64,000 bases of DNA from Schizochytrium sp. TIO01 (Eukaryota; Sar; Bigyra; Thraustochytrida; Thraustochytriidae). Below, one piece after another: positions 1 to 57,970 of this stretch. Both the position numbers and the translations under genes were made by a program. The number at the start of each line of letters is the position of its first letter. Within the stretch, counting starts at the first letter, position 1. Location: the NCBI GenBank assembly GCA_004764695.1, contig SMSO01000014.1:5880029-5944028 (forward strand). The letters are read 5' to 3'. Under the pieces are notes generated by a model. That model was not told the DNA's origin. It saw only the letters and a program-made list of their open reading frames with translations, and did no database searches.

Positions 1-890
1 ATCTGCATGCCGTCGAGGCAGCACATGTAAAGTGCTGTGGTGAGGACTAGCATGAGGGAGACAAGAAGACCAGCCATAATGTGAGGGGTGTTGCGAACCT
101 GGGTGTCGCTAATGTCCGGGAAGGCATCGAGGCGGCGGCGGCTTGTGCTGAGCTCAACGAGGTTGTTAGTCATTGGATGAGAAGGTGCCTTCTTGGCATT
201 GTCGCCGGTGAAGACGGCAACATAGCGATCAGCAACGTGCTTCTTCAAGGTCTCAAGGGTGTTGCCGATGGCAACATTCCAGCTCGCGATATCCTCGGGC
301 AACATAACCACAACCTTGAGCTTTCCAGCAGCAATCTTGGCACCAAGCTCACTGTCGAGAACCTTGGCATCCTGAGTAGGGTCCTGGACGGTGATGAGTG
401 TCTCCGGGTTCTTTCCGAAGGCCCAGCGGCTCCAGGCGGACTGAGTGCCGGGGCGAGAGGAGTCCACTACAAAGGGAAGAACCAGAGAGGATTTAGCAGC
501 ATTAAATGCGCTTCTGAGTGTCTTAACAACAGCCTTGGATCCCGGGATCTGCTCAAAAGATCCAAGAGCCTCGGAGACTTCCTTGGCACTCAGTTCAGGG
601 GCCAAAAAGAGCACTGTGGCCTGGGATTTTCCATGGTCTGCATCATACTTCACAGCATCCAGAAGGGGCTCGCTGGAGTCAGATTCGAAGCCAGAGATTT
701 GATCCACAAGGGTAGCGGCATCAGTTTCGTCAAGACCCTCGAGACCAGCGTACACATTCTGGCCACTAAAAGTGGCCTGCGGTGCCCAGATCAGCACAGG
801 CACGGGGAGCTTCGAGGAAGTAGTGCAAGCAGCTGAGGTGGTCTCCACGGATCCTGCCAGAGCCAGAACGAGCACCGCAATCGAACGCAT
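1..890 (-). CDS. ATP6AP1-like: V-ATPase accessory subunit ATP6AP1/Ac45-like protein, C-terminus cut by window edge
   Basis: The frame is open from an ATG at 888-890 to the window edge, about 296 codons with no stop. It begins with a hydrophobic signal peptide (MRSIAVLVLALAG...) that would end near residue 20. The luminal part matches animal Ac45: VPVLIW near the N-terminus, then ATVLFLAPELS and, after a helical stretch, SSLVLPFV, which correspond to VPLVLW, NVLLFLQDKLS and SSLVLPAV of the human protein. An RRR triplet precedes the last segment and may be a processing site. Near the edge comes one membrane segment (MAGLLVSLMLVLTTALYMCC), like the single C-terminal helix of Ac45/Voa1. In animals this subunit sits in the Vo rotor ring and helps V-ATPase assembly and targeting. 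The luminal domain is shorter than in animals. It is divergent from the ATP6AP2-like gene at 3130. The family call rests on motifs read by eye. Confidence 0.75.
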   Translation of the reverse strand, partial: MRSIAVLVLALAGSVETTSAACTTSSKLPVPVLIWAPQATFSGQNVYAGLEGLDETDAATLVDQISGFESDSSEPLLDAVKYDADHGKSQATVLFLAPELSAKEVSEALGSFEQIPGSKAVVKTLRSAFNAAKSSLVLPFVVDSSRPGTQSAWSRWAFGKNPETLITVQDPTQDAKVLDSELGAKIAAGKLKVVVMLPEDIASWNVAIGNTLETLKKHVADRYVAVFTGDNAKKAPSHPMTNNLVELSTSRRRLDAFPDISDTQVRNTPHIMAGLLVSLMLVLTTALYMCCLDGMQ

Positions 891-3129
891 GATAGTTTGC
901 ATTTTGATATTAAGATTGATACTGATTGGATCGATCTTTATGAATAGTCGATAATGTTTATATTGTGTATCTGCTCGCAGCAACGTCAGGGTTTCCTGAG
1001 CCGTCCAGCGAGACCTCAGAAAGAGCACTATCCACAGTCCACGGGTTCTCCACAGATGCTACAGAAGCTGGGACGAGCGGCGTCAACGACGGCGGAGACA
1101 AAGAGACAAAGTTGTACGAGCTAGCTGATAGCTACAGCACCAGCGATGACGACCTCGACGAAGGCCTCTCCTCAGTGTTCGGGAGGGCTGGGTTGAGAGG
1201 CTGAGTGAAGGGTTGTCCTACTAGCTTCTCTGCCTCCTGCTCGGTGTCTTCGTGCCTCCCAGAGAGAGGCGCGCGCTGCTTCGTGTCTGCCGCGGCTTCG
1301 CCGCTGCTTTCTCTGCTTCTCTTCTCCCTCTTTATAACTCTAGAGAAGCATAACATAATGTTATTATTTGCTATTCTTTTATGTATGATGACTTACTTAT
1401 TCCATTTTACTTTCATTAAAATTAATTTGAATGAAATAACTACTAAAAATCATCATGAATTTACACCATAACCTGAAACAAAACAGAAGAGATATTCCAT
1501 CGCCAAAGTAGACTCTCGAATCCATCTGTTCATAAGGGTACAGATACAAAGCGTTCAGGTCTTTAAGGGCGTAAGAACCGACGTCAATGTAGACGACGGA
1601 CGATTATTTTTAATTAACATTATCTCATCGAAGTGATAACCATCGATGTTCTTGGGCCAGATCTTCATTCTAGGTGTGGTTTGCACAACTATTATTCATG
1701 GCATTCCGCAACGTTGAGGGGTATTTTGGAGAGCTTGTTATCATTCGTCTGCACCGCAAGACATGAATCTCGTGGCGTCGTATTTGGTCTTTGCTTTGGA
1801 TGTTGATTGCCTTCGCGTTTTGCCAAGCTGCAAACGGCAATATTGTTAGTTTTTTAGCAATCCGCCGGCTACTTATTATTTAATTACTTATCGAAGGCTG
1901 AAAATAAAGTAAAGTTTCTGTTTTCTATTAACAACGATTCTGAAAGAACAACCACTGTGCGACTATTATCGAGCGTATTTAAAGCTCTTCAGGGCGATGG
2001 GGGCGCTTGAAACTAGTGCAGTTTTGTGTCGCTTGTGCGCCTTTCCCTTCTCAGAGGTTGCATACATATTATTGATGAAAAGCATCCATTTGGCAGAGCT
2101 TCTTTATCATCAAGCAAGATACGTGCTTTTTCCTCTTGGTAGAGTTTATCCGACACTGGAGCTAAATTATACGTACACCTCCCAGAAGAGAATCTTAGAT
2201 TCCCCTCACCTCCTCTATGTCAAAATCCTAACTATCCTTGTATTTTAATAGTTTACACTAAAATATACCCTCATGATACACTGCAACAATAGCACTTTAT
2301 ATTCAACAGTGTGGTACCTCCAACTTCTACTGTATGTTTTTTTTCTTTATGCATCGACTCCCTCGGCCTAATATCCTCTCTGCTTGTTAGCTTAGCTTCC
2401 TGTATCCTTATTTATCCGATACCTCCGCCTCGTAAACAGAAATCCTAAAGTATCAAAAAGTAGGTCGTGCCTTGCCAATTTTCACCTCAAGCAAATGAAT
2501 AACCATGTGGACAAGTTGGTACAGATATTATAAAGTCAGCAACGAAACGATATAAATGTTTCTCGTGCCACACCAATGATATGTGCGATTTCAATGTGAA
2601 GAAGTTGCAGGCATCCTGAAAAGACATATTTCGTTATACTGGTCACGATCAATTATAAAGAAATCAAAAAATAGACTATAAAACACAGAGGATGATACAT
2701 CATAACACAATACATCGTGCGGAAACAGACACCAACTGCAGGACCCAATGAGAACCAAAAAGCAAGGAAATCAGTGAAGGAGCTGGAATGCAAAACACTG
2801 CTGCATGCAACCTCGAAAGGGTGATGAAGTGTCTGAGCATTCACTTCAATTCACGCCAAATGCAGCGACGAATTTATGACAATGACAATCATGATAATGA
2901 ATGATTTGTAAATAAACAATAATATGAAATGAAAAGAAATATTGTTTCTCATAGATAGATAGATAGATAGCGAGGAGGAGAAGAAGCAAACCAAACCAAG
3001 CTCTCCAGTCGGCGTGAGCACGCGAGGACGCGAGGACGCGCGCACGCAGGCCCGCAGACAGGAGCTCACACCTCCCTCACCTCCCCGTTACCCGCGCCGC
3101 TATCCCCTTATCGGCCGCCTTTCCTCATC
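891..3129. other. Intergenic region between the divergent V-ATPase accessory genes
   Basis: About 2.2 kb without a convincing gene. The short open frames here lack recognisable domains. A small GATA tetranucleotide array lies at 2951-2970, roughly 160 bp before the ATP6AP2-like start, and a GC-rich stretch at 3005-3125 just upstream of that ATG probably holds its 5' leader. The promoters of both flanking genes must lie here, but I see no clear TATA box for either. Confidence 0.5.
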
Positions 3130-4149
3130 ATGGCGGGCATCTCTATCTCGCAGTTTCTTCTGCCTCTGGCCGTTCTTGCCGTCGCGTCTTCGACGGTTTC
3201 CGCGCAGGATGCTGCTCTCTCTGTAAGTGGTTTCGGAGTGCACCAAAGCTCCTCCTCCAGCGCTTCATCTGCCCCTCTTCAGGACGTATCCGCCGTGGCT
3301 GCTCGCCTCTTGGGTCTTGACGTGCCTCTGGACCGCTCTATCTCCTTCGCTGGCGACCTTTTTGCGCGGCCTACTGCGTGTGTGGTCCTTGCCATCGAGA
3401 ATGTTGGCCTTGGAGACCTCTCCGGCGCAGCAGACCTTCCCAACTTGCGCTCTAGCTTCGCAGAGGCCTCTGCTGTAGCTCTCGAGCAGCCTCGCAAATG
3501 GTCTCTGGCCGCTGACGCTGCTGACGTTAAGCTCGCCCACGCGCTGTCTTATGGTCGCGCTCGCTTCGCGAACATCCTTCGCGCACAGTTTCCCGACAGC
3601 TTGGTAGTGACTGCTGGGTCTGACGAGGCCATGATGTCTGCTGTGGGACCTGCAGAGGCGTTTTATGGTGCCGGCGAGGAGGTTGAGACCTTCCTGCAGG
3701 CCGCTGAGATGCTGGACAGCGCCAAGGCTGTTGACGAGGCCCCGGACTTTGTTGTGCTCCCTGTTGGACAGTTCAAGGAGGAAAATGGTGAAGCAGAACG
3801 CATTAAGAAACTGGAGGCATTTGATAAGAGGGTTCCTGAGGTGGTGAAGGCATTCCAAGATAAGTTTGGACAACGCGCAGCTGTGCAAATTGTGCTGCTC
3901 GGAAAGTCCATGCCGGCATGCGACCATGGGCGTCTGCTGCTGGAGTCTAACTCAAGCTCGTCGAACTCAACTTCTTCGGAACTCACGTACACCACCAACC
4001 AGATTGCCGACTACTTGCTCATGAGTTGGACATCGGTTGTGCTCTTTCTGTTCTTGCTCATGTTCTTCCTTTGTGTGCCCTGGTCTGACGAGCTCGACCC
4101 CATCTTGTACTCTGGCCTCCAGCAGGACGATGCCAAGAAGGAGATGTAA
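3130..4149 (+). CDS. ATP6AP2-like: V-ATPase accessory subunit ATP6AP2 / (pro)renin receptor-like protein
   Basis: A single-exon ORF of 339 residues. Residues 1-25 form a signal peptide ending in SA|Q. The luminal domain follows the renin-receptor family pattern: QDVSAVAARLLGL...DRSISFAGDLFARPTACVVLAI aligns with the human stretch around PDVAALSMGF...LFHRPRATVMVMV, and VVKAFQDKFGQRAAVQIVLL matches the segment before the membrane. An Asn/Ser-rich linker with possible N-glycosylation sites comes before one membrane helix at about 296-316. A 23-residue tail (DELDPILYSG...KKEM) resembles the human tail, including the acidic-DP-x-x-Y pattern and a KKxx-like ER-retrieval end. In animals the protein packs with ATP6AP1 inside the V-ATPase rotor ring and is needed for Vo assembly. 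The ATG at 3130 is the first in frame and opens directly into the signal peptide. Length is close to the human protein (350). Confidence 0.85.
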   Translation: MAGISISQFLLPLAVLAVASSTVSAQDAALSVSGFGVHQSSSSSASSAPLQDVSAVAARLLGLDVPLDRSISFAGDLFARPTACVVLAIENVGLGDLSGAADLPNLRSSFAEASAVALEQPRKWSLAADAADVKLAHALSYGRARFANILRAQFPDSLVVTAGSDEAMMSAVGPAEAFYGAGEEVETFLQAAEMLDSAKAVDEAPDFVVLPVGQFKEENGEAERIKKLEAFDKRVPEVVKAFQDKFGQRAAVQIVLLGKSMPACDHGRLLLESNSSSSNSTSSELTYTTNQIADYLLMSWTSVVLFLFLLMFFLCVPWSDELDPILYSGLQQDDAKKEM

Positions 4150-5115
4150 GGTATTTGATAATTCTAGTAGAGTACGCGCGTGCCGCGAAGCTCTGTTGTT
4201 GTTTTTTTGACGGTGGAGGCTATCAACTCTAAATTGCCACAACTACGCATGCTACAGCTGCATACCTCAGCCCTAAACCTTCTTATAACCCGCTTACTCA
4301 CGGCCACTTCTGTGCGGCCAGTTCACTGCCGCTTGGGCCTTCCCCGCCGTGTAGACAAATAAGGCCGAACTTGGTTTATAAGGCCGAGTTTCGCTCTCAA
4401 GCCCGCACAACCTTGCCTCGCCTACGATGACCTTCATTTGGTACGTACGTAGATCGCCAGTAAGGGGGGAGTTTAGGCGAACTCAATGGGAGAGAGATTT
4501 CCTTAAATGATTGAACACAAGTAAACACAAAACAAGAGCATTCACACATTTGCCCACTTTGAAACCTCTTTTGAGGTCTGTTTTGTTTTTTGTTCTTTGT
4601 TTTTTCCCTTGTTACATGCACCACATTTGCAGTCAGCCTTGGCCCTTTCATCATTCAAAGCTCCAGCTTCGTCTCTTGCAGGTATAGTTCTACACTGGTA
4701 GAAACATAGAGAAAAGAGCATAGCTGTCCAGGAGGTTAGATTATAATTCACAGGTATCAAGAGAGAAGTATTAATTGCTTTTTAACTGACAATATTTTGG
4801 ATGATTTCGTGGTGTGGTTTCTACTTTTTGTCTTTACACTGCATTTAAGCAGTTGATAACTGTTGGAGATTACAGTACGAACGTATGACATGTATGTTTC
4901 TTACTTTAAAAAGGAAACCAAGGGAGCGGCATCCTAATGATACCATGCTACTCACTTTCCTTGCTCCCCAAAATAACATTATTTCCGTAACCTTCGTTCG
5001 ATAATGAAGATGTGTCACGAGGTATCCACCCAAACTTTACGTCAAACTTGATGGGCGCGATTATGGAGGGGATCACAGAGCTGCCACTTAGAAGAGCATT
5101 TGGTCCTGTTTTATA

Positions 5116-5233
5116 GCGCCACCACCACCACCACCACTATCATCATCATCATCAGCAGCAGCAGCAGCAACAACAACAACAACAACAACAAGAACAACAA
5201 CAACAACAACAGCAGCAGCAGCAACAGCAAGAA
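5116..5233. repeat. Compound trinucleotide tract (CAC/ATC/CAG/CAA)
   Basis: About 118 bp in which successive runs of CAC, ATC, CAG, CAA, CAG and CAA follow one another with a common period of three. The phase is kept while the triplet changes. Read as protein it gives only a Ser/Asn homopolymer, and no gene surrounds it. Confidence 0.9.
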
Positions 5234-5432
5234 CGATGAAAATAACACTTCCGAATTAAAAAGCATATTGGAATCAAGAGGTCATGCACAATCGTGATTA
5301 GACTTTGATAGGAGAGATGAAGAATCAGGCTAATTCATATTAAAAGGAATAAAACTACAACGAAACAATTTAACTCTGATGATACTATCTTGCTCATCCA
5401 AGTACCGTCAGAATTGAATCATATAAATAAAA

Positions 5433-5438
5433 TTTATT
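5433..5438 (-). terminator. Polyadenylation signal AATAAA of the cysteine protease gene
   Basis: TTTATT on the plus strand reads AATAAA on the coding strand, 26 bp after the TAA stop. It is the only canonical hexamer close to the stop. Such hexamers are common by chance in AT-rich DNA. Confidence 0.35.
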
Positions 5439-5463
5439 CTTGACGGTCTATTGTAAGATGGGG

Positions 5464-6828
5464 TTACTGAATCTCAGAAAACCCAAAACTTTGCTGTGAC
5501 ACTTTGACACTGTGCACAATATCATTAATACCGCAGACCCCTTCGCGAATTCTAAAAAAACCATTTTCGCCCCACTTTGGGCCCCATGAATTCTTCACCC
5601 GAAACCAGCCCGGACCGTGTCCAGTGATCAGAACAGCATGATTCTTTGCGCTAGAGCTGCAAAACCATGGGTTTGCTACGCCTCGGTGATAAAACTGAAG
5701 CATTGTTGCGTCCATCACAGCTGTAGAAGGCCCCTCTTCAGCAATTTGTTGGATTTGTTCCTCAATATCAGTCGAAAGTAATTTATAAGATGTTGTAGTA
5801 CCCAAACGCTTCTCATGAAGCCAAGACTTGTTTGTACAAAAATCTTTCCCAGACTGACCTTGAGTGCTGGTCTTATTGCAGTACAAGTCACTATGGTCAC
5901 CGCATCCTGCCTCAGAATAACCCTTGGCCATGCAGGGAAAGCAAGCGGGCATTAGTGTCTTCGGATCAACTTCTCCTGCACAGTAGCTAAAGTCCTTCTC
6001 AGCCACGAAGCCGCCTTGATTTCTCCAAAATTCAAAGACAAGGTGCGGCCAGCCACCAAATTCGCCACAGTCCGCAATAGTTTGGTCCTTGATGGTTTCG
6101 TGCTCAGTGTCGCACTCCAATGGGTGCTCTACACTAACGGTGACGTTCTTCACCCCGTAATGGATTGCAAGTTGGCTTTCCACAGCGCCTGCCGCTGCAA
6201 ATGCGTAGCATGTGCCAATGCTCCCTTGCTCACGCACGGCCGAAACAGCACCTTTGTCGCCCCAATCGAAATCTATCTCTTCGCTGTAGTGCTTTGATTG
6301 GCCTTCAACAGGACGAAAGCCTAGATCTCTAGAATCTACTTCCCGCATGAGAACCTTTTGTGTGAACTCTAGAGGCGACATATCCCCAAACGGGCTATGG
6401 TCTGCAGAGTACTCGGCGTCGCCATGCATATTGAGGCCTTCTACGATTCCAAGATTGTTGGCAAATGTATGAATCTGCTCGCATGAGATTGGTTCGTCTT
6501 CGCGGTCATGACGGAGTCTAAATTCGGCATACCTCGTAGACAGCCAGTCCTGGCCGGGTACGCACAACCTTGCTGCATCAAGCAGCTTCACTCTCGCTCC
6601 TTCTTCGAGCAGCCAGTTTTCTCGCAGCTCTTGTTGCTGTCTCTTCCCTAGGAGATCGCCTTGCTTGAAGTTCTGCTTTTCACGGTTCCAAGCGGCGCCA
6701 TCAAGAATTTCATCTAACCGTCCAGAGACTTGTGGTAGAAAGCCTTCGCGTTCCGCAACTATGAGTAGTGCCAGCAGTACCACCAGCGCCACCAGCACAT
6801 AGATGACTCTCTGCTCTCTGTCCTTCAT
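5464..6828 (-). CDS. Membrane-anchored papain-family (C1A) cysteine protease
   Basis: A single-exon protein of 454 residues. Residues 8-25 form one hydrophobic segment right after a charged start, so it is a signal anchor or signal peptide, which suggests an endomembrane or lysosome-like location. A shortened I29-type inhibitory propeptide ends near residue 160 (SPFGDMSPLEF, matching the family's N-x-F-G-D-M-x-x-E-E-F). The mature domain holds the whole catalytic set: Gln201 (EQGSIGTCYAF), nucleophile Cys207, His397 (KNHAVLITGHG) and Asn413 (VKNSWGPKWGENGFF). The papain Cys22-Cys63 disulfide pair is absent: Ile stands in GSIGTC and Glu in the DC-GEFGG loop. Possible N-glycosylation sites are NVT, NKT and NKS. 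The ATG at 6826-6828 is chosen because the codon three positions upstream is TTG and a stop precedes it in frame. Confidence 0.9.
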   Translation of the reverse strand: MKDREQRVIYVLVALVVLLALLIVAEREGFLPQVSGRLDEILDGAAWNREKQNFKQGDLLGKRQQQELRENWLLEEGARVKLLDAARLCVPGQDWLSTRYAEFRLRHDREDEPISCEQIHTFANNLGIVEGLNMHGDAEYSADHSPFGDMSPLEFTQKVLMREVDSRDLGFRPVEGQSKHYSEEIDFDWGDKGAVSAVREQGSIGTCYAFAAAGAVESQLAIHYGVKNVTVSVEHPLECDTEHETIKDQTIADCGEFGGWPHLVFEFWRNQGGFVAEKDFSYCAGEVDPKTLMPACFPCMAKGYSEAGCGDHSDLYCNKTSTQGQSGKDFCTNKSWLHEKRLGTTTSYKLLSTDIEEQIQQIAEEGPSTAVMDATMLQFYHRGVANPWFCSSSAKNHAVLITGHGPGWFRVKNSWGPKWGENGFFRIREGVCGINDIVHSVKVSQQSFGFSEIQ

Positions 6829-26650: not shown

Positions 26651-26816
<166 letters not shown>

Positions 26817-47817: not shown

Positions 47818-47825
47818 TATGTGTG
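47818..47825. repeat. Left 8-bp target-site duplication (TATGTGTG)
   Basis: TATGTGTG lies immediately outside the left terminal inverted repeat and is identical to the 8 bp immediately outside the right one. Confidence 0.85.
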
Positions 47826-47845
47826 GGCTCGTCTGCCATGCTGAC
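47826..47845. repeat. Left terminal inverted repeat
   Basis: GGCTCGTCTGCCATGCTGAC; it matches the reverse complement of the right end at 19 of 20 positions. Confidence 0.9.
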
Positions 47846-47916
47846 AAAAGTCTCTCTTCCAAAAGAGCAAAAAACTCGCGCTTAGAACGCCTATGAATTA
47901 ATATGGGAGACTCATT

Positions 47917-47966
47917 GGTGTTCTAGAACAGTGTTCTCAAGGGTGTTCTGGAACGGTGTTCTGTTC
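47917..47966. repeat. Subterminal GTGTTCT repeats with a 12-bp palindrome
   Basis: Four GTGTTCT copies occur within about 50 bp between the left end and the ORF's stop. One is part of the perfect palindrome TGTTCTAGAACA (47919-47930) and another of a near-copy TGTTCTGGAACG. Related TGTTCTCTC and ATGTTCTCTC occur near the right end (about 53991-54010). These could be transposase-binding sites; that is inference. Confidence 0.5.
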
Positions 47967-47990
47967 TTAGTTCTTATATATTATATGAGT

Positions 47991-50900
47991 CTAGCTAACA
48001 GTAACGGCGACTTGACTTGAAAACTCAGTCGCTGAAATCTGAGGCGCTTGAGCTTGACTTTGACTTGACATTGCTTGGTTGGGATTTTTGATCGCAGCTA
48101 AGATTAAATTTAAATGCGTAGACCCCCTTGCGTCAGATCTGGCTGCCCAATAGACCTGTAAATATGAAATATTGTAAACCCTCCAGATTCCACGAACAAT
48201 GTCCATCGCAAATGCCCTACGATAAACTTCATTCATATGTTCATCTTGAATTTCCTGGTGAGCAACTTCTTCAGCTACATCTCCACGCCATAAAGTATAC
48301 ATTAGAGTAGATACGTGATATCCGCAATCCACACCGTTTTTTTGGTTGCCTCGCCTAATCTCGATCTCCCAGTCTTCAGCTCCAAAAAGACGGATGGCAT
48401 CGCCAAATACTTTCATCACGTGGCTCGGTTCATGCAAGGTACTTAATGGGTCGTAAAAGACAACACGCGCTTGCCTTTGGTTAAAATAAAGAAGCTGCCA
48501 ATGACTTCCTGTACAAAACGGTAGCATAACATATTCAATGACATCTGGAATATAGATTGACCTCGTTGAGGAGCTGTCCTTTTGAAAATGGCCTCTTGGT
48601 GTGGCATTTGCAATCGCATTGCATACAGACGATATAAACAAATCGTGTCGGTCATCTACCGAACTTGTGAGGAATTGAAGTGCGGTGCTAGGTACAAATG
48701 CGGTTCCGTGACACTTCTTTCTTTCTGCAGGCTTCATAACGCGATTTTCTTCGCAGCAGGTAGCACACCATGCATCCATTGCATCCCCTTGCATCCATGA
48801 TAAAGGTTCCCCGAAAGATTCGGGGTTAGTTGATTCGGAGCATGGCAAGTTCCCATGAGAGTCTAAGAACAGCCTTTGACACATGCCAAACTCTAGAAAC
48901 GTATGATTCATAGTGATGTTGTTTGAATGAACAAAGTGTTTTCCACTTGTAAAAACAGAGTGCTTGGGAGAAATGGAGCTCTTCAGAAGACTGAACACCT
49001 TTGCTGAAGCTTTCCAGAACGCTGTGCATTTTGAGTTAAACGTTCGCACAGGTCCTCCTTGTCTTGGTTGCATTTTGACACCGCGTACATTTCCAACCTT
49101 GGGGACATCTACAGTATGTTCTTTAGGGGCTATCGCTTGAGCCCTTCTTTTTTCAGACCCGAAAAAGTCTGTGGGTGGTAAACTGTCCAGGGCAGAAATT
49201 GTTGCTTCGCAGGTCTGAAGTTTGCACTCAGCGCCAAATGGCGTGGGGTGCCCTTCTCTTGGTGCATAGCAAGACTGACAGTACTTGCACTTGCTCAGAT
49301 TTTCAGGAGCTCGCCAGATGCTCTTTCGTTTACTTTTCAAATGCTTGAATTGGAAAAAGGTTTGTTGAGGTGCAAGGGGGAAGTTCTTCGTCATAATTGA
49401 CCTCAACTCTGCTGTGTCAAATCGTTCCAGAGAGGGATGCCGAGAGAGGAGTTCTTCGTTTATGATGTTCGCTTCCAGATTGCAACGTGTTGAATAGTCC
49501 AGCTCTCTGATACTTTCCAATAGATGCAAGGGATGCACCAAAGCACCATCTGCAGTAACAGGTACGTCGACCAATGGCTCAGTCATGTGCTCTAACTTGG
49601 ACGCTAGCATTAGTTTTCGATTTTTGGCAGAAATGCTATCTCTCTGATTCAGAAAATCTGCATATTGCCTGAGTAGGAACGCCGTCTTTGGTTTCAGATA
49701 TTCCCTCAAGTCGCCCGGATGAGAGATCTGCACGGAATCAAGCTTCGGAAGGAAAAGACCGTCAAGATCCCCTGCAGGACAAGCGTATCGATTCCACAAC
49801 TGTGCAAAGCTTTCGAAGCTGTTAGACAGAATGGGCGCAGCTTTTCGATTGAAGTTTTTGGTTTTAAGAAGATATAAATAAAAGTCTTGCTCCACTTTGT
49901 CCTGCTGTTCGGGCTTACCTTTCATTTTGAATGGGCAAGGCGTGCTAGCTCCTATGAGGTCCTTGGGGCGAGGTCTGGCCCAACCAGAGCCTTTTATGCC
50001 GCAAGTTGTATAAGATGCCGACAGTACTTGCTGCTGCTTCTTCCTACATTCCACCGTTTGCTCGGCATCATCCCCACTATTTTCGCTGAGAACTCTCTCC
50101 CACGAGACGTCATCAGTCAGAGAGGTTCCAGATCGATTTGGCAAAGGATCTTCACAGAATGCAATCCAACGGGTACGGTCAGGCCTTGCCTCTTCGGCAG
50201 GGAACAAGCCTTTTTTTACCCTTGGCGCAGAAGCAAGCTGCGCTTTTGGAAGATTTGTAATATTTTTTCGAACAGAACATCCAATGTGCAGATGAATATC
50301 AGCGTTTGAGCTACCAACCACTAATTCTGATATTGGGTCATCCTCGTGTTCAGGCGGTTCTAACTGTACGCACGATATTTTGATCCTTTCTTTAAATTCC
50401 TCAGAATCAGAGTCTGTACTTATACAATCTTCAAGAATTTCTACACAAGTTGAAAGGACTCTCTGAACACCAATATCACCTTGAGGTTCAGGCTTGTCAC
50501 CGTTCTCTCCTTTAGTGAAAAGGCTGCCGTTTACTAGTATATTCATTGCTATCAGGCGCAAGCTGATGTGGTCTTTCAATTTTTTATCGATGCCAGCCTC
50601 GTCGAGGACTGATCGATCTGTTTCGGTGGGTACCCCTCCTCCCGTTAGTTTTCGAAGAACTTTCTGGAGGTAACTTATGGCTTTTCTTTTATGTTCTGGT
50701 CGTGCGAGAGCTTTTGCAAAGGCAAATATCACAGCAATGGCTTGCTCTACGGCATGCGCCAGTGTTGAGTTCTCCGTGCTGTCGAAGAAAATCGGCACCA
50801 CAGTGGCTCGCGTCCTCATTATATGATTAGACTCCAAAACAGAACCAACACTTGGCATCATGCTGAATCCCATATGTAAGTCATGAGAAACGCACAAAGG

Positions 50901-53525
50901 CAGTCGTGCATCTGGATAAGGGAGCTCATTATGCTCGATTTTACCATTGAACGCATCATTGACGAGGGAGTTTATCGTGAGGTGGTGGCTGAATGGTTGG
51001 TGAATTAAATACGAAGGTAAACCTTTTATCTCAATCATTCTGGAACGATTGTATTTAGCAACCACTTTGGTGAGTAGCGCGTCAGCACGAACAATACCAA
51101 TGGTAGCACTTGCAACAGCCTGGTTCAACATACGATGGAACACCTCATTTGCATTAGTACCTCTATTTCCCACAAGATGATTTTTGCCATTGATTTTAGT
51201 CTGTAGAACGAGACCTGGAGGGTCGCTCAAGCAGCCCTTATGAACATGTTCAAAAAGGCCTGCAATATACTTGTCTAGGCCAACCCCTGTGGCGGTCTTA
51301 GATAAAAATAATCCATGCCGAAACCCATTTGGATAGGGTCCGAAATGTTCTACACAAGCGTTACCAGATCTTGGTTTGCAACGCTCTCGTACGCGATGAA
51401 GCAGGTCAGCACTGAGATCCATCTTCGAGTTCATAATATAGTGAGTCTTAAAAACTTCCATGATGCGCTTATATAGAACCTCTGGTTGTGGGATTCGGGT
51501 TTCAACAGCTTGATTGATAAGCCGATCTTTTGTGAAGTTGCTCTTACTCTTATGTTCCTGTTGAACCTGCTTCACTCGCTTGTGGTCGCGCTGAAGAACA
51601 GCGTTTGCTAATGCAGTCATGAATGCAGTACGAGGTGCTCGGCTTTCGTTGCTGCTTTTCACCATTATTTGCTCCCAACGCTTGAGCCAGTGAAACAAAT
51701 CGAGCTTGATGGGGACTCCCTTGAAAATTTGTGATAGGCATTTATTTAATTTTCCACAACATGTATCTGTCCAAATACATTCAGGCCGGTAATCCCGACC
51801 ATGCATTTCCTGGCGTAGCTTGACGAATCGTCCTAAAGCTTCTCTTATTTCCCTCTCGTTCTCACTGTTCGCCAACCCACAATAGAATATAATCTGGTTG
51901 TGTTCGTTACTGATTGTGAGTAGGGCTTGATATGGCTGGTATATCCTAAAGGATTTGTCTTGGTCTTGGAATCGAAGTTTACAGCGCTCGGGAAACCGGA
52001 ACGTGCAATCGATAGCGATATACCTGGCGCTGTATGACGCAATTTCGCGAAGCAAAGGTCTTGCCTCTCCTTTAAACTGGTCAATACATAATTCGTCGAG
52101 AAATTTGGAGCTTAATCGATATCCGTTGTACTCCATGTCGAAGTTGCCAAAATTTTCAGGAGCCGTGATTGATTTCTCTTGCGTTTCTTCTTCATTTGAG
52201 CACGATGCTGATTGATTTGTCTGGTCGACCTGTTTGCTCGCTTGCTCAGCTGCTTGCTCGGCAGATTCTTTATTGATCTTGTCTCGGGCAAGTCGCTCGT
52301 TGCGCTGCTGGATAACCATTCGAGCATACTCCACGCTCAGTAAGTCCTTTTCTCGGAGTATCTGGTTGATTGTAGTCTCCAAAAGTTCTTTCCAACCCTC
52401 TATAACCCTCGTTCGGTCCCTCTCACGTCGAGCAGTGCTGAGTTGCTTGATTTTCTCGCCGTTTTTTGTATCTAGGATGTTCTTAAGCTCATGGAAGACA
52501 TCAACAACTGTAGAGATATTGAGAGCAGACTTTAGGATTTTAATCTTTTTTTCTCCCAAACTCTTGATTTGCTTTAAATCAAATTCCAGTAATTCACGAG
52601 CAGCCGTCTCCTTTCTCAAAACCTCAGCAGAACATTTTTCGGGCTGGAATTGAATCTTAGATTTGAGCGTATTTGTCGAGTTCACTGCTTGCTTTTGAAA
52701 AAAACTTGGGATTGTATTGGGGCCAGCTTCATCGAAGCGCCGAGTGTGTTCTCCTAAGCTTGATGCATAGTAAAAGTACTCTAGACGATTATGGTTCCGT
52801 ACCTGAGCCTCATTGAAAGCATCTGCAGCCCACGCGGGACTTTTCAACCACAATTGGCTGAGACGTTGGCTAACCTCTGTTTCAATCCCGTGGCGTGGGG
52901 TTAAGGTCAGGCCAAAGCGTATCCGTACGTCAGCAGGGCACAAACGAAGAACATCCTCACTTGTATTGCGAAACTCTTTATTGCACTTTTTACATTTATA
53001 CTTTCGAGCCACGAGAAACCAATTTGCAGTCGCACCAGCAATCTCTCGGTAATTTGGTGCCCAGAAGCCATCGTCACCAGAGACGCTGACAAGAGGTTCA
53101 CCCAAATGCGCTTTTTGGTTGCAGTATGGACATGGCATGCGATTGTTCATCGACGCATACATTTTTGCTGGATGCCATAACCCAACGCTGCGCTGGTGAA
53201 AGTACTCTGGTGCAATTTGTTGACCTCTTTTTACTTTCGGCAGTTTGGGTTTCTGGAGCCAAGTGATTGTCCCATCAGGAACAATGTCGTACAGGGACTG
53301 GCATGTTTTGATATCCATTTTATCAAGTGTGTCTTTGCAGCTGTCGATAAATTTTTGTTGGATTAAGGTGATCGTAGTCTCGCGCTTCTCCTCATCTACA
53401 TTAGCGCTTTCATTTAAGCCTTCCAGATCCTTTCTGATATCCTCATGACTCAAGGATTCCTGATCATTGTCCCCGGGAGTGGCTGTCGCCTGGCGAAGCT
53501 TGCAACGTGATGAAAATTGCATCAT
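47991..53525 (-). CDS. Transposase with zinc knuckles, DDE-like core and C-terminal Ulp1-type cysteine protease
   Basis: One exon, 1,844 residues, opening at ATG 53523-53525. Order of parts: paired CxxC motifs at Cys132/135 (CPYCNQKAH) and Cys178/181 (KCKKCNKEF), a likely zinc-binding DNA-recognition module; a Lys/Glu/Gln-rich helical region at about 300-450; an RNase H-like core with Asp506 (YIAIDCTFRF), Asp587 (CIWTDTCCGKLNKCL), the following KLDLFHWLKRW and a candidate Glu794 (NRGTNANEVFHRMLN); another Cys cluster (CKYCQSCYAP) in the last third; and a C48/Ulp1-like domain with His1675 (GSHWQLLYFN), Asp1692 (VVFYDPLS), Gln1728 and Cys1734 (NQKNGVDCGYHV), in the order and spacing of SUMO proteases. 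The xLDxFHxxxR pattern after the second Asp recalls ISL3/MULE-like transposases. No stops or frameshifts are seen. Confidence 0.85.
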   Translation of the reverse strand: MMQFSSRCKLRQATATPGDNDQESLSHEDIRKDLEGLNESANVDEEKRETTITLIQQKFIDSCKDTLDKMDIKTCQSLYDIVPDGTITWLQKPKLPKVKRGQQIAPEYFHQRSVGLWHPAKMYASMNNRMPCPYCNQKAHLGEPLVSVSGDDGFWAPNYREIAGATANWFLVARKYKCKKCNKEFRNTSEDVLRLCPADVRIRFGLTLTPRHGIETEVSQRLSQLWLKSPAWAADAFNEAQVRNHNRLEYFYYASSLGEHTRRFDEAGPNTIPSFFQKQAVNSTNTLKSKIQFQPEKCSAEVLRKETAARELLEFDLKQIKSLGEKKIKILKSALNISTVVDVFHELKNILDTKNGEKIKQLSTARRERDRTRVIEGWKELLETTINQILREKDLLSVEYARMVIQQRNERLARDKINKESAEQAAEQASKQVDQTNQSASCSNEEETQEKSITAPENFGNFDMEYNGYRLSSKFLDELCIDQFKGEARPLLREIASYSARYIAIDCTFRFPERCKLRFQDQDKSFRIYQPYQALLTISNEHNQIIFYCGLANSENEREIREALGRFVKLRQEMHGRDYRPECIWTDTCCGKLNKCLSQIFKGVPIKLDLFHWLKRWEQIMVKSSNESRAPRTAFMTALANAVLQRDHKRVKQVQQEHKSKSNFTKDRLINQAVETRIPQPEVLYKRIMEVFKTHYIMNSKMDLSADLLHRVRERCKPRSGNACVEHFGPYPNGFRHGLFLSKTATGVGLDKYIAGLFEHVHKGCLSDPPGLVLQTKINGKNHLVGNRGTNANEVFHRMLNQAVASATIGIVRADALLTKVVAKYNRSRMIEIKGLPSYLIHQPFSHHLTINSLVNDAFNGKIEHNELPYPDARLPLCVSHDLHMGFSMMPSVGSVLESNHIMRTRATVVPIFFDSTENSTLAHAVEQAIAVIFAFAKALARPEHKRKAISYLQKVLRKLTGGGVPTETDRSVLDEAGIDKKLKDHISLRLIAMNILVNGSLFTKGENGDKPEPQGDIGVQRVLSTCVEILEDCISTDSDSEEFKERIKISCVQLEPPEHEDDPISELVVGSSNADIHLHIGCSVRKNITNLPKAQLASAPRVKKGLFPAEEARPDRTRWIAFCEDPLPNRSGTSLTDDVSWERVLSENSGDDAEQTVECRKKQQQVLSASYTTCGIKGSGWARPRPKDLIGASTPCPFKMKGKPEQQDKVEQDFYLYLLKTKNFNRKAAPILSNSFESFAQLWNRYACPAGDLDGLFLPKLDSVQISHPGDLREYLKPKTAFLLRQYADFLNQRDSISAKNRKLMLASKLEHMTEPLVDVPVTADGALVHPLHLLESIRELDYSTRCNLEANIINEELLSRHPSLERFDTAELRSIMTKNFPLAPQQTFFQFKHLKSKRKSIWRAPENLSKCKYCQSCYAPREGHPTPFGAECKLQTCEATISALDSLPPTDFFGSEKRRAQAIAPKEHTVDVPKVGNVRGVKMQPRQGGPVRTFNSKCTAFWKASAKVFSLLKSSISPKHSVFTSGKHFVHSNNITMNHTFLEFGMCQRLFLDSHGNLPCSESTNPESFGEPLSWMQGDAMDAWCATCCEENRVMKPAERKKCHGTAFVPSTALQFLTSSVDDRHDLFISSVCNAIANATPRGHFQKDSSSTRSIYIPDVIEYVMLPFCTGSHWQLLYFNQRQARVVFYDPLSTLHEPSHVMKVFGDAIRLFGAEDWEIEIRRGNQKNGVDCGYHVSTLMYTLWRGDVAEEVAHQEIQDEHMNEVYRRAFAMDIVRGIWRVYNISYLQVYWAARSDARGSTHLNLILAAIKNPNQAMSSQSQAQAPQISATEFSSQVAVTVS

Positions 53526-54041
53526 TTTCGTGTTTGATGTTTACCTCGTTGTTGAGTTTCGCTACCTCAAAGTATCATTTAATATGCCCTGATCATCCAG
53601 TGAATATTTCCAAGTCTCTTTGCACATGTATTCGAGCCCAAGGAATACGAGCTTAACCACCATCAAAGTCCAGTATTAAATTGCATCAGTGAAACGTCGG
53701 CGTAGTATTCGTTGAGGTGGATGTGCCAGTTTACCAGAAATATGTAACATCCTTGTGAGGAGACCCAGTGGTGATACACTTAATTATTTTCAGTGGAATT
53801 AGAGGAAGATTATCACTGAGTGTTCTTGCTAAAACCAGTAACAAAATTCATAAAGAGTTTTAAATTAAAAGCTAAATGTCATGCCGCGTCCCACAGTTAA
53901 AGCCATATATCTTATAAAATGCATATCAAAAAACTCGCCAACACAATGATTTTGTGAGGAAAAGTAGAATTTCCCCCCAGATTTTCGCCTGTTCTCTCCT
54001 ATGTTCTCTCCCCCCCCCGCGAGTTTTTTTTTTGAGCTCAC

Positions 54042-54061
54042 GTCAGCATGGCAGATGAGCC
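54042..54061. repeat. Right terminal inverted repeat
   Basis: GTCAGCATGGCAGATGAGCC; inverted copy of the left end with one mismatch. Confidence 0.9.
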
Positions 54062-54069
54062 TATGTGTG
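54062..54069. repeat. Right 8-bp target-site duplication (TATGTGTG)
   Basis: Identical to 47818-47825. The flank continues as TGTGCGC, so the target was a TG-rich stretch. Confidence 0.85.
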
Positions 54070-54777: not shown

Positions 54778-54838
54778 GTATGTATGTATGTATGTATGTA
54801 TGTATGTATGTATGTATGTATGTATGTATGTATGTATG

Positions 54839-54868
<30 letters not shown>
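54778..54868. repeat. ATGT tetranucleotide array (about 22 copies)
   Basis: Perfect array of about 90 bp. Confidence 0.97.
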
Positions 54869-55301: not shown

Positions 55302-55462
55302 AGCTTGTTTGGTTTTGTTTGTTTGGTTTTGTTTGGTTTTGTTTGTTTGTTTGTTTGTTTGTTTGTTTGTTTGTTTGTTTGTTTGTTTGTTTGTTTGTTT
55401 GTTTGTTTGTTTGTTTGTTTGTTTGTTTGTTTGTTTGTTTGTTTGTTTGTTTGTTTGTTTGT

Positions 55463-55509
<47 letters not shown>
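55302..55509. repeat. TTTG array passing into a CTTG array
   Basis: About 40 TTTG units (slightly irregular at the left) change at about 55465 to about 11 CTTG units, with no break in the four-base period. This is the longest microsatellite in the window, at over 200 bp. Confidence 0.97.
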
Positions 55510-55510
<1 letters not shown>

Positions 55511-57970
55511 TTGAATGTGAATGAATGAATGAATGTGAATGAGTGAAAACCATCGTCGAACGTGGACCACTGACAGTTTGCAAAGAAAAAAGAATAGCAA
55601 CTCTTTTTTTCTTTTTCGTTTTAAAAGTTTAATTTAAAACAAAAAACAAAAAAAAACTTTAAGATTGGAAAATAGCAAACAAACAAAAAGAGAACCAGTA
55701 CTTCTGACAAAGTTTGTTTCCATGAATTATGAACCATGAATTGCAAAACAATCCGAATAGGCCTACACGACTTATTTAACTTAAGTTAAAACAGAGCCGC
55801 GTTGTCATCGCAAGATTGCGCTTCATTTGTCCAAAAGTAAAACTAACAAGAGTAAACCGACATCCCCGGTTCTAAAAGTATGGTTTTCCGCAGCAATATA
55901 TCTTGAAAATAAAAGAGCAAAGCACAACCCATCACAGAATGGGGCCTCGCAAGTTAGATAGACATAAATATTCATTACTTTATTCTTTACAATATACTCA
56001 CTCTCATTTCCGAATCACCGGAAGCAGGCAAACGAGGCCCGCAACAAATGGTTGGCCGCGCCTTTTGACGTTGCCTTGGACCCCGAAACAAAGAACGGCG
56101 GGGTGTCGAACAATGCGCTCCCGAGTCTCCCATCGTACCTTTCGCAGACCTCTTCTCAAGATCTTCTTTCTACAACGTCACAAGTACCACGCCCGCCTGT
56201 GTCGGCCTTTATTTATTGCCCATTCGCCAGGTCCTTTTGCGCCTACAGTGAGCGAACGAATGCTGTTTCAAGGTTATAACTACACTCCAGTACAACAAAA
56301 AACATAAACTCGCAAATCGATACCAGAAAACGCGACAACTGAGGCGGCTTCTGAGCCTTGCAAATGATGAACAAATAAATAAATACAAAGTAAGTAAATA
56401 AATAAATAAATAAATAAATGGCGGCGACCTCCCTCCCACTCTGGTGGAGATGGATTTCAACGAATGCGTGCGTGGGTATACATACATACATAAATACATA
56501 CCTATCGAGCTTCGCTGTCTGACTGAATGACTGACTGAACGTGAATGACTGACCTGAGTTTGTGGACTGCCAAACAAAGCAAAAGCAGCACAAGTGCCGA
56601 AAGGAAGGAAGTCAGAGTGGTAGTAGAAACTGGAAACGCTGGTGCTTTGGAGGCGCATTAGGCAGTGAGTGAGTGAGATAGTGAGTGCGTGAGTGCGTGG
56701 CTCCTGGAAGTGGCGCCTGGTTCGCAAAAGTTGGTGGCATCGCAGCTTAAGTAATTGTTTCTTTCCCCAGTTGCCGACCACGAGACCCTCTGAAGCGGCA
56801 CTGCCTCGCATCACAGCTTGCTTGTCACAGAGAGCGAGCGAATGAATGAGTGAGTGATTGCAGGGTTGTGCGAGTTGAGACCTACAGTAATGCACTTGGT
56901 TTGCTGCTTGCTTGCTTGGTTGCTTGGTTGCTTGGACAGCTGATTGCGGCCTTGAAAACGTGGGAACTGAAGCTGCTCTGTACACGCATGAAATGCTTAA
57001 TGCATAAATGCAATTCTACGACTACGCAGCAAGATATGCTGGCTGTGACATGATTTGCAATGACGGCTGTGTCTTTTGCTGTGCTGTGCTTTGCTCTGCT
57101 TCGCTCCTCCGCGTTGAGCTTAAGTAGTGCGTGGTTGCAACAATGCAGGTGCAATCAAGCACACGATGGCATACACCTGTGGCGGCGTCTCATTGCAGTC
57201 GCAGGTCTGATGCCAGCAAGCCTAGCTGCTCGAGACTGAGGGCAGATATACCCGGAGAGCGCCGTTTTCGAGCAACAATTTGTGAGTTCCTCTTGAGCTT
57301 GAGGGTTCAGCACTCGGCACAATATGCCGCGAGCAACCAACAGCCGGACAACGCAGCACTGCTGCTACGAGCACGGCGTCCTCTGAGCCGGAGCGATCGT
57401 CGTCCACGCGAGCCCTGCAACAGGTAGGAGACCTAGGTACCTACTGCCCCGGCGACGTGGTCAAGGTGGAAGCAGCAGCGGTGTCTATTGCGTAGTTTGG
57501 CTTGAAGGTCTCCAGGCAGGATTTGTGAGGACCTCGCCTCCATCGCATCGCACGAGAGTGCGCACGCATTGCATTACAGGTGAGTGGACTCCAACAGAAC
57601 CAACCGAAACAAACTCAGGATCTTCGCACAATATGATCTTGAAAGGAGAGGCCGTGGCTCTGATCCGTCTGACCTTTGATTGAGCTTGCCAAAGAGATCG
57701 CAATGGGCTGCATCCTGCTGCTACTTTCTGGAGATCGACTCCCAGTCCACGTTGAATTTGAGAAGAAGAGGACCTTGGACTGTCAAGGTCTTCTTCACAT
57801 TGAAACAACAAAGCGAACATTGATTCATTGGCAGATCGCCAAAAATATGGTATCGCTACTACGCCAGACCATTCTCAGGCTTGGAATAGCTGATGATGGC
57901 AGTTTTGACCAGGGAAGCCCTGTAAGCAGTGGCGCTGCCACGCTCGGGAGGGCCTTCTTACGGCTCTGAT

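Follow-up and report, generated by a model that had tools for sequence, protein, structure and literature searches.

Dada elements are DNA transposons whose large transposases carry, in this order, an N-terminal CCCC zinc finger, a DDE catalytic core (D567, D635, and E811) with a DxxH motif, and a CCHC finger (PMC3706591; here and below, published systems are described as in those passages of the cited papers that treat the features in question). The same arrangement is found in a 6,236-bp element of the thraustochytrid Schizochytrium sp. TIO01, which lies in a 64,000-nt stretch of contig SMSO01000014.1 (positions 5,880,029 to 5,944,028, forward strand; GC content, 45.2%), hereafter called the window. 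The element is probably a recently mobile, autonomous DNA transposon whose architecture, as far as can be judged from sequence, comes closest to that of Dada, as either a lineage of Dada that does not target RNA genes or a sister superfamily. Dada was compared through its published description (PMC3706591) and not through Dada sequences.

Structure and genomic copies of the element

A preliminary description, drawn up from the letters of the window, had proposed an intact, recent DNA transposon with a perfect flanking 8-bp duplication, 20-bp terminal inverted repeats (TIRs) with one mismatch, a shared subterminal block, and an uninterrupted open reading frame (ORF) of 1,844 codons. All of these features were recovered, and the other copies in the genome agree with the proposed transposon. 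The element is organized as follows (window positions).

47826..54061, minus (transposase strand): whole transposon, 6,236 bp, based on five identical copies in its own genome
47818..47825: target duplication at the left flank, 8 bp, TATGTGTG
54062..54069: target duplication at the right flank, 8 bp, TATGTGTG
47826..47845, plus: left TIR, 20 bp, from the repeat search
54042..54061, minus: right TIR, 20 bp, one mismatch, from the repeat search
47870..47879, plus: subterminal motif AAAAACTCGC, left copy, starting at element position 45
54019..54028, minus: subterminal motif AAAAACTCGC, inverted relative to the left copy, 33 bp from the right end
53929..53938, plus: subterminal motif AAAAACTCGC, third copy, in the right subterminal region
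47991..53525, minus: transposase ORF, 1,844 amino acids, uninterrupted, no intron necessary, from the ORF list

The two TIR arms are 95% complementary over their 20 nt. The subterminal motif occurs three times in the 64-kb window, each time inside the element near its ends, where 0.31 occurrences are expected; a count of three was reached in 1 of 100 shuffles. These copies are possible binding sites for the transposase. A seed-based search of the window for pairs of ends next to direct repeats (exact 8-mer TIR seed at one of three offsets; TIR match of at least 17/20; ends 0.5 to 20 kb apart; flanking direct repeat of at least 7/8) returned solely this element, plus an image of it shifted by one base. 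Long tetranucleotide arrays (CTTT, GTAT, and TTTG) are also present in the window at 26651 to 26816, 54778 to 54868, and 55314 to 55513, the latter two within approximately 1.5 kb of the insertion.

The genome (64.06 Mb, 37 contigs) was then searched for further copies. Five full-length copies are present, all 100% identical across 6,236 bp, and each is flanked by a perfect 8-bp duplication whose sequence differs from site to site. A shorter derivative carries such a duplication as well.

Contig C4: full-length copy, duplication CACTTGGT (in the orientation of locus L009)
Contig C13: full-length copy in the window, duplication TATGTGTG
Contig C24: two full-length copies, duplications TGATTCAC and CTTTGCTC
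Contig C33: full-length copy, duplication ATAAGTCT
Contig C34: 2,073-bp derivative with element positions 814 to 4962 deleted, perfect duplication CTTCAATA

Perfect 8-bp duplications are found at six of the seven copies that are more than 90% identical and retain both ends, namely, the five intact copies and the C34 derivative; the seventh, a degraded 5,958-bp copy on contig C6, has no in-register duplication. Target duplications of constant length, together with TIRs, thus occur at several sites, as is characteristic of cut-and-paste DDE transposons. From the identical copies, we infer recent activity of the element. Other copies diverge from the window copy to various extents: 0.4% for a fragment on C25, 1.7 to 2.2% for the C6 copy, 2.6% for the C34 derivative, and 6.7% for a fragment on C13. 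With a 108-nt query from the left end, 18 matches were obtained in the genome, 5 at 100% and 13 at 78 to 96% identity over full or partial length. At some of these left-end loci, pieces of both ends are preserved (approximately 80% identity), and these loci resemble older non-autonomous relatives; at eight such loci inspected by eye, no clear duplication was seen. Judged from its copies, this is a lineage with several waves plus a recent burst.

The preliminary description had also named other genomic copies and empty target sites as what to look for. The copies were found, each with its own duplication, while an empty version of the window site was not found in the assembly, since the joined flanks match just the two flanks themselves, at the occupied site.

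The transposase and its relatives

When the 1,844-amino-acid protein was compared to Pfam, two families exceeded their cut-offs, DUF6729 and Peptidase_C48, and no transposase family matched the whole protein at an E value of up to 1. This agrees with the earlier failure to match the element to a named superfamily: neither hAT nor KDZ families were hit, and one Mutator-like (MULE) match stayed below threshold. DUF6729, the Ulp1-type protease domain, the CCHC motif, and the likeness to Dada are new relative to that description. The following features were located in the protein.

52863..53264, minus: DUF6729, residues 88 to 221, with C132, C135, C178, and C181 (Pfam E value, 9e-9; 35.7 bits; cut-off, 27)
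52008..52010, minus: candidate catalytic D506 (IDCTF), invariant in both alignments
51765..51767, minus: candidate catalytic D587 (WTDTCC), invariant in both alignments
51690..51701, minus: DxxH motif, D609 to H612 (LDLFHW), H612 invariant in both alignments
51144..51146, minus: candidate catalytic E794 (RGTNANE), invariant in 4/4 rows of the alignment of residues 70 to 860
49224..49280, minus: CCHC zinc motif, C1416, C1419, H1426, and C1434, invariant in 5/5 rows
48207..48539, minus: Ulp1/C48 cysteine protease domain, residues 1663 to 1773 (Pfam Peptidase_C48 E value, 8.2e-9)

Two alignments underlie the catalytic and CCHC assignments. The first has five rows (the window protein, the in-genome relatives L039, L040, and L041, and the metagenome protein P0001), in which D506, D587, C589, C590, H612, a CLSDP block, R788, and the four CCHC residues are invariant. 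For DUF6729, three of the cysteines (C135, C178, and C181) are invariant in 5/5 rows of an alignment whose invariant list does not contain C132. The second alignment covers residues 70 to 860 in four rows (the window protein with P0001, P0002, and P0003, which are 21 to 24% identical to the window row) and leaves D506, D587, D609, H612, R788, and E794 invariant. D506, D587, and E794 are the likely catalytic triad, with D609 to H612 as the likely DxxH motif. In the protease domain, the catalytic residues of Peptidase C48 (H1675, D1692, Q1728, and C1734) are all present. Sequence comparison of the protease part to the PDB gave 14 weak matches (E values, 0.048 to 0.65), 12 of which fall on Ulp1/SENP-type or I7-type cysteine proteases; the remaining two were judged to be chance. 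The whole protein matched nothing in the PDB by sequence and no NCBIfam family. Two PDB matches to a profile (A3; E values, 0.34 and 1) were also judged to be chance, and the sub-cut-off Pfam matches Peptidase_C57 and zf-C2H2_DHX34 were set aside.

Further relatives of the protein lie in the host genome, with 34 matches, six loci among them being approximately 30 to 38% identical. DUF6729 gave 16 matches, of which 15 exceeded the cut-off; a more distant family, located at C6:1108864 and C24:5370472, is among them. Two uninterrupted relatives, L039 and L040, match both DUF6729 and C48; the DUF6729 score of L039 was under the cut-off in one search and, at 28 bits, over it in another. L040 (positions 214 to 5727, minus) encodes 1,837 amino acids, with the DDE residues and H612 intact. 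It is matched in pieces, at approximately 71 to 83%, by a broken relative at C24:1189k. L039 (1512 to 7646) and L041 (1253 to 7340) form a third family of two copies that are 94.8% identical, with a ratio of nonsynonymous to synonymous substitution rates (dN/dS) of about 0.45; this protein could be kept for another role. The second DUF6729 family, L070 on C6 and L063 on C24, comprises two copies that are 99.46% identical across 3,142 nt. Upstream of the ORF, both have an array of 102-bp tandem repeats, with more repeat copies in L070, and each repeat contains the palindrome-like block GTAGTACTTTTGAAAAGTACTAC.

Outside the host, a search with the window protein found one relative, P0001, among approximately 8,000 candidates scored, and a search with the distant in-genome family L070 found two, P0002 and P0003. 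A search with alignment A2 (again, approximately 8,000 candidates scored) returned no relative; it missed P0001, itself a member of the query, so this result is no evidence of absence. A scan of IMG/VR gave 31 pattern matches, none of which was confirmed. Alignment scores of the core exceed those of 300 shuffles by 40.5 standard deviations (SD) for P0001, 7.6 SD for P0002, and 6.9 SD for L070, values that support homology of the core in these three.

Classification and proposed mechanism

Two features that describe Dada are present in the window protein, i.e., a DDE triad whose second D is followed by DxxH (D506, D587, D609xxH612, and E794) and an N-terminal CCCC set (C132/C135/C178/C181) with a C-terminal CCHC set (C1416/C1419/H1426/C1434). 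The distances between the catalytic residues are near those of Dada (D-D/D-E, 68/176 residues in Dada versus 81/207 here), the element falls within the Dada length range (4.7 to 11 kb), both proteins are large (1,402 amino acids for Dada-U6_DR and 1,844 here), and internally deleted derivatives are known for both. The C-terminal CCHC fingers are also alike, spaced C-x2-C-x9-H-x8-C in Dada and C-x2-C-x6-H-x7-C here. Some differences concern the gene and the protein: introns occur in all Dada elements except those of Perkinsus, in contrast to the uninterrupted window ORF, and the Ulp1 domain is extra relative to Dada (PMC3706591).

Several observations weigh against placing the element beside Dada as a mobile DDE transposon. 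The described Dada elements have duplications of 6 to 7 bp, no TIRs, and 135 residues between the finger and the first D, compared to 8 bp, 20-bp TIRs, and 325 residues in the window element, and they insert in U6, U1, or tRNA genes (PMC3706591), while no RNA gene was found at the insertion sites of the window family. Across 11 of 73 loci (L009 to L013, L017, L039, L040, L041, L063, and L070), 6 of which are window-family insertion sites, ARAGORN found no tRNA gene (0/11) and no Rfam model matched at its gathering score (0/11). Within the protein family, the position of E794 is occupied by K in L039 and L041 and, by eye, by L in a broken relative on C36; these relatives are perhaps dead or re-purposed, as the replacement of E794 suggests. 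L040 has N at the position of D609 (NxxH). No TIRs or duplications were recognized at L039, L040, or L041, nor at the borders of the homology between L039 and L041; end candidates scored +1 point (L040) and -1 point (L039) relative to one shuffled sequence each, those of L041 standing without such a control, and the search at L040 covered 213 bases left of the ORF. The core of P0003 alone scored no better than 300 shuffles (1.5 SD). Finally, an AlphaFold2 model built from the four rows has a mean predicted local distance difference test score (pLDDT) of 36.7 and thus lends no support to an RNase H fold. Because two defining features of Dada are missing and the comparison runs through a description, the element is not filed as Dada. 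The transposase is built like that of Dada, and our best guess is a sister or ancestral-type lineage.

An assignment to KDZ (Kyakuja-Dileera-Zisupton) is unlikely, even though KDZ elements are also large and carry zinc-binding domains and 8-bp duplications are reported for Zisupton and one Dileera element (PMC12730594), as well as for KDZ1, an element of approximately 11 kb (PMC12810828). The comparison to KDZ was made with Pfam profiles and published descriptions, not with KDZ sequences. Neither PF18758 nor CxC matched the protein (E value of up to 1 for the whole protein and 10 for the core), the TIRs of KDZ1 to KDZ3 measure 139 to 241 bp (PMC12810828) versus 20 bp here, and Kyakuja is described with 7-bp duplications and without TIRs (PMC12730594). 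A genome search for KDZ was empty too, but this absence is weak because the controls also gave nothing. A divergent MULE is a slightly poorer candidate still. A weak profile match spans residues 537 to 615, which hold the second D and DxxH; the C/DxxH motif is common to MULE/IS256 and the window protein; the 8-bp duplications fit the 8 to 11 bp characteristic of MULEs (PMC6446971); and some Mutator elements contain Ulp1 domains (PMC2836005). However, the match reaches 15.9 bits against a PF10551 cut-off of 27.6 and was seen in one of six proteins tested, and the Pfam search of the window protein gave no SWIM match. The one MULE found in the host (35 bits) is dissimilar to the window family in pairwise comparison (-0.3 SD) and shows no profile similarity to it, the latter being a weak test of one sequence against four rows. 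This host MULE, L073 (C4:671000-673000), is the sole ORF found there with a MULE domain over the cut-off, and a SWIM-like C-terminal motif can be seen in it by eye.

The 8-bp duplications, short TIRs, and DxxH motif would also suit a far-diverged hAT or P element, which we consider improbable, as the Pfam families for hAT dimerization, BED, THAP, and P element are all unmatched (E value of up to 1; for the core, 10). The target duplications of hAT-type elements follow a consensus; it was not seen among the six duplications, in which no position is constant, six sites being few. Novosib, a Repbase superfamily, has 8-bp duplications as well. Five identical copies with uninterrupted ORFs could, in principle, be a non-mobile gene repeated by segmental duplication or an assembly artifact, an explanation with next to no probability. 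No flank similarity was found among the five full-length copies (up to 900 bases; E value, 1e-3), and every copy has an exact, private 8-bp duplication flush with its TIRs. These differing flanks and private duplications refute segmental duplication, unless the assembly itself is false. Ginger1 resembles the window element in having TIRs and, in many members, a C-terminal Ulp1 domain after the DDE transposase, and differs in its 4-bp CCGG or CCGT duplications and its Gypsy-type integrase with GPY/F (PMC2836005). Ulp1-type domains are found in Ginger1, Mutator, and CACTA elements (PMC2836005 and PMC2528002) and can therefore be regarded as a recurring accessory.

For an autonomous, Dada-like DNA transposon, a mechanism can be proposed by analogy. 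In Hermes, the histidine of C/DxxH touches the scissile phosphate, and ISCth4, an IS256 element, shares the motif as CxxH and makes 8-bp duplications (PMC7780238). With its candidate DDE triad, DxxH motif, and 8-bp duplications, the window enzyme would most simply fall into this broad group as a DDE strand transferase. Its zinc-binding parts may recognize the TIRs and the AAAAACTCGC copies in the subterminal regions, after which the DDE core would excise the element, its DxxH histidine lying close to the scissile phosphate, as that of Hermes does. The excised element would then be joined to the two target strands at points 8 bp apart, and host gap repair would yield the 8-bp duplications. The Ulp1 domain may act on the transposase or on host proteins by trimming off SUMO or ubiquitin-like tags, or it may mature the long protein. 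Cut and paste is most likely and our first choice over copy-out; ISCth4 moves via copy-out/paste-in (PMC7780238), and the sequence evidence is compatible with both routes, which counts slightly against the proposal.

Implications for DUF6729 and Dada-like transposons

The combination of zinc-binding parts, a putative DDE core, and a SUMO-protease-like part matched no described transposon group compared here. No paper naming DUF6729 and no element of this description turned up in searches of an open-access library (Repbase and Dfam lie outside this scope), and Pfam lists DUF6729, which the window protein has in common with the Pfam proteins of that family, as a domain of unknown function. Tentatively, and with less confidence than in the placement near Dada, DUF6729 can be proposed to mark an undescribed eukaryotic DDE superfamily, or a free-ranging sister group ancestral to the site-specific Dada elements, of which the window element would be a recently mobile founding member. 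As such, it would combine TIRs and 8-bp duplications with the lack of a target gene, and its transposase would include a SUMO protease in the same protein.

A gene for a PfaA-type polyunsaturated fatty acid synthase is also present in the host genome (matches in one frame sum to 1,157.4 bits; model cut-off, 1,010.1), and synthases of this type point to a thraustochytrid. The GC content of the window, 45.2%, agrees with the 45.0% of Aurantiochytrium sp. TWZ-97 (PMC12258536). An intact, apparently young element from a protist group used in biotechnology is a candidate gene tool.

The element places DUF6729 in mobile DNA and gives it a likely role, as part of a DDE transposase. The built-in Ulp1 domain opens the possibility of a protease role in transposition, which would be relevant to Mutator, CACTA, and Ginger1 elements as well. 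If the element is a relative of Dada, the gain or loss of strict small-RNA-gene targeting would become directly comparable.

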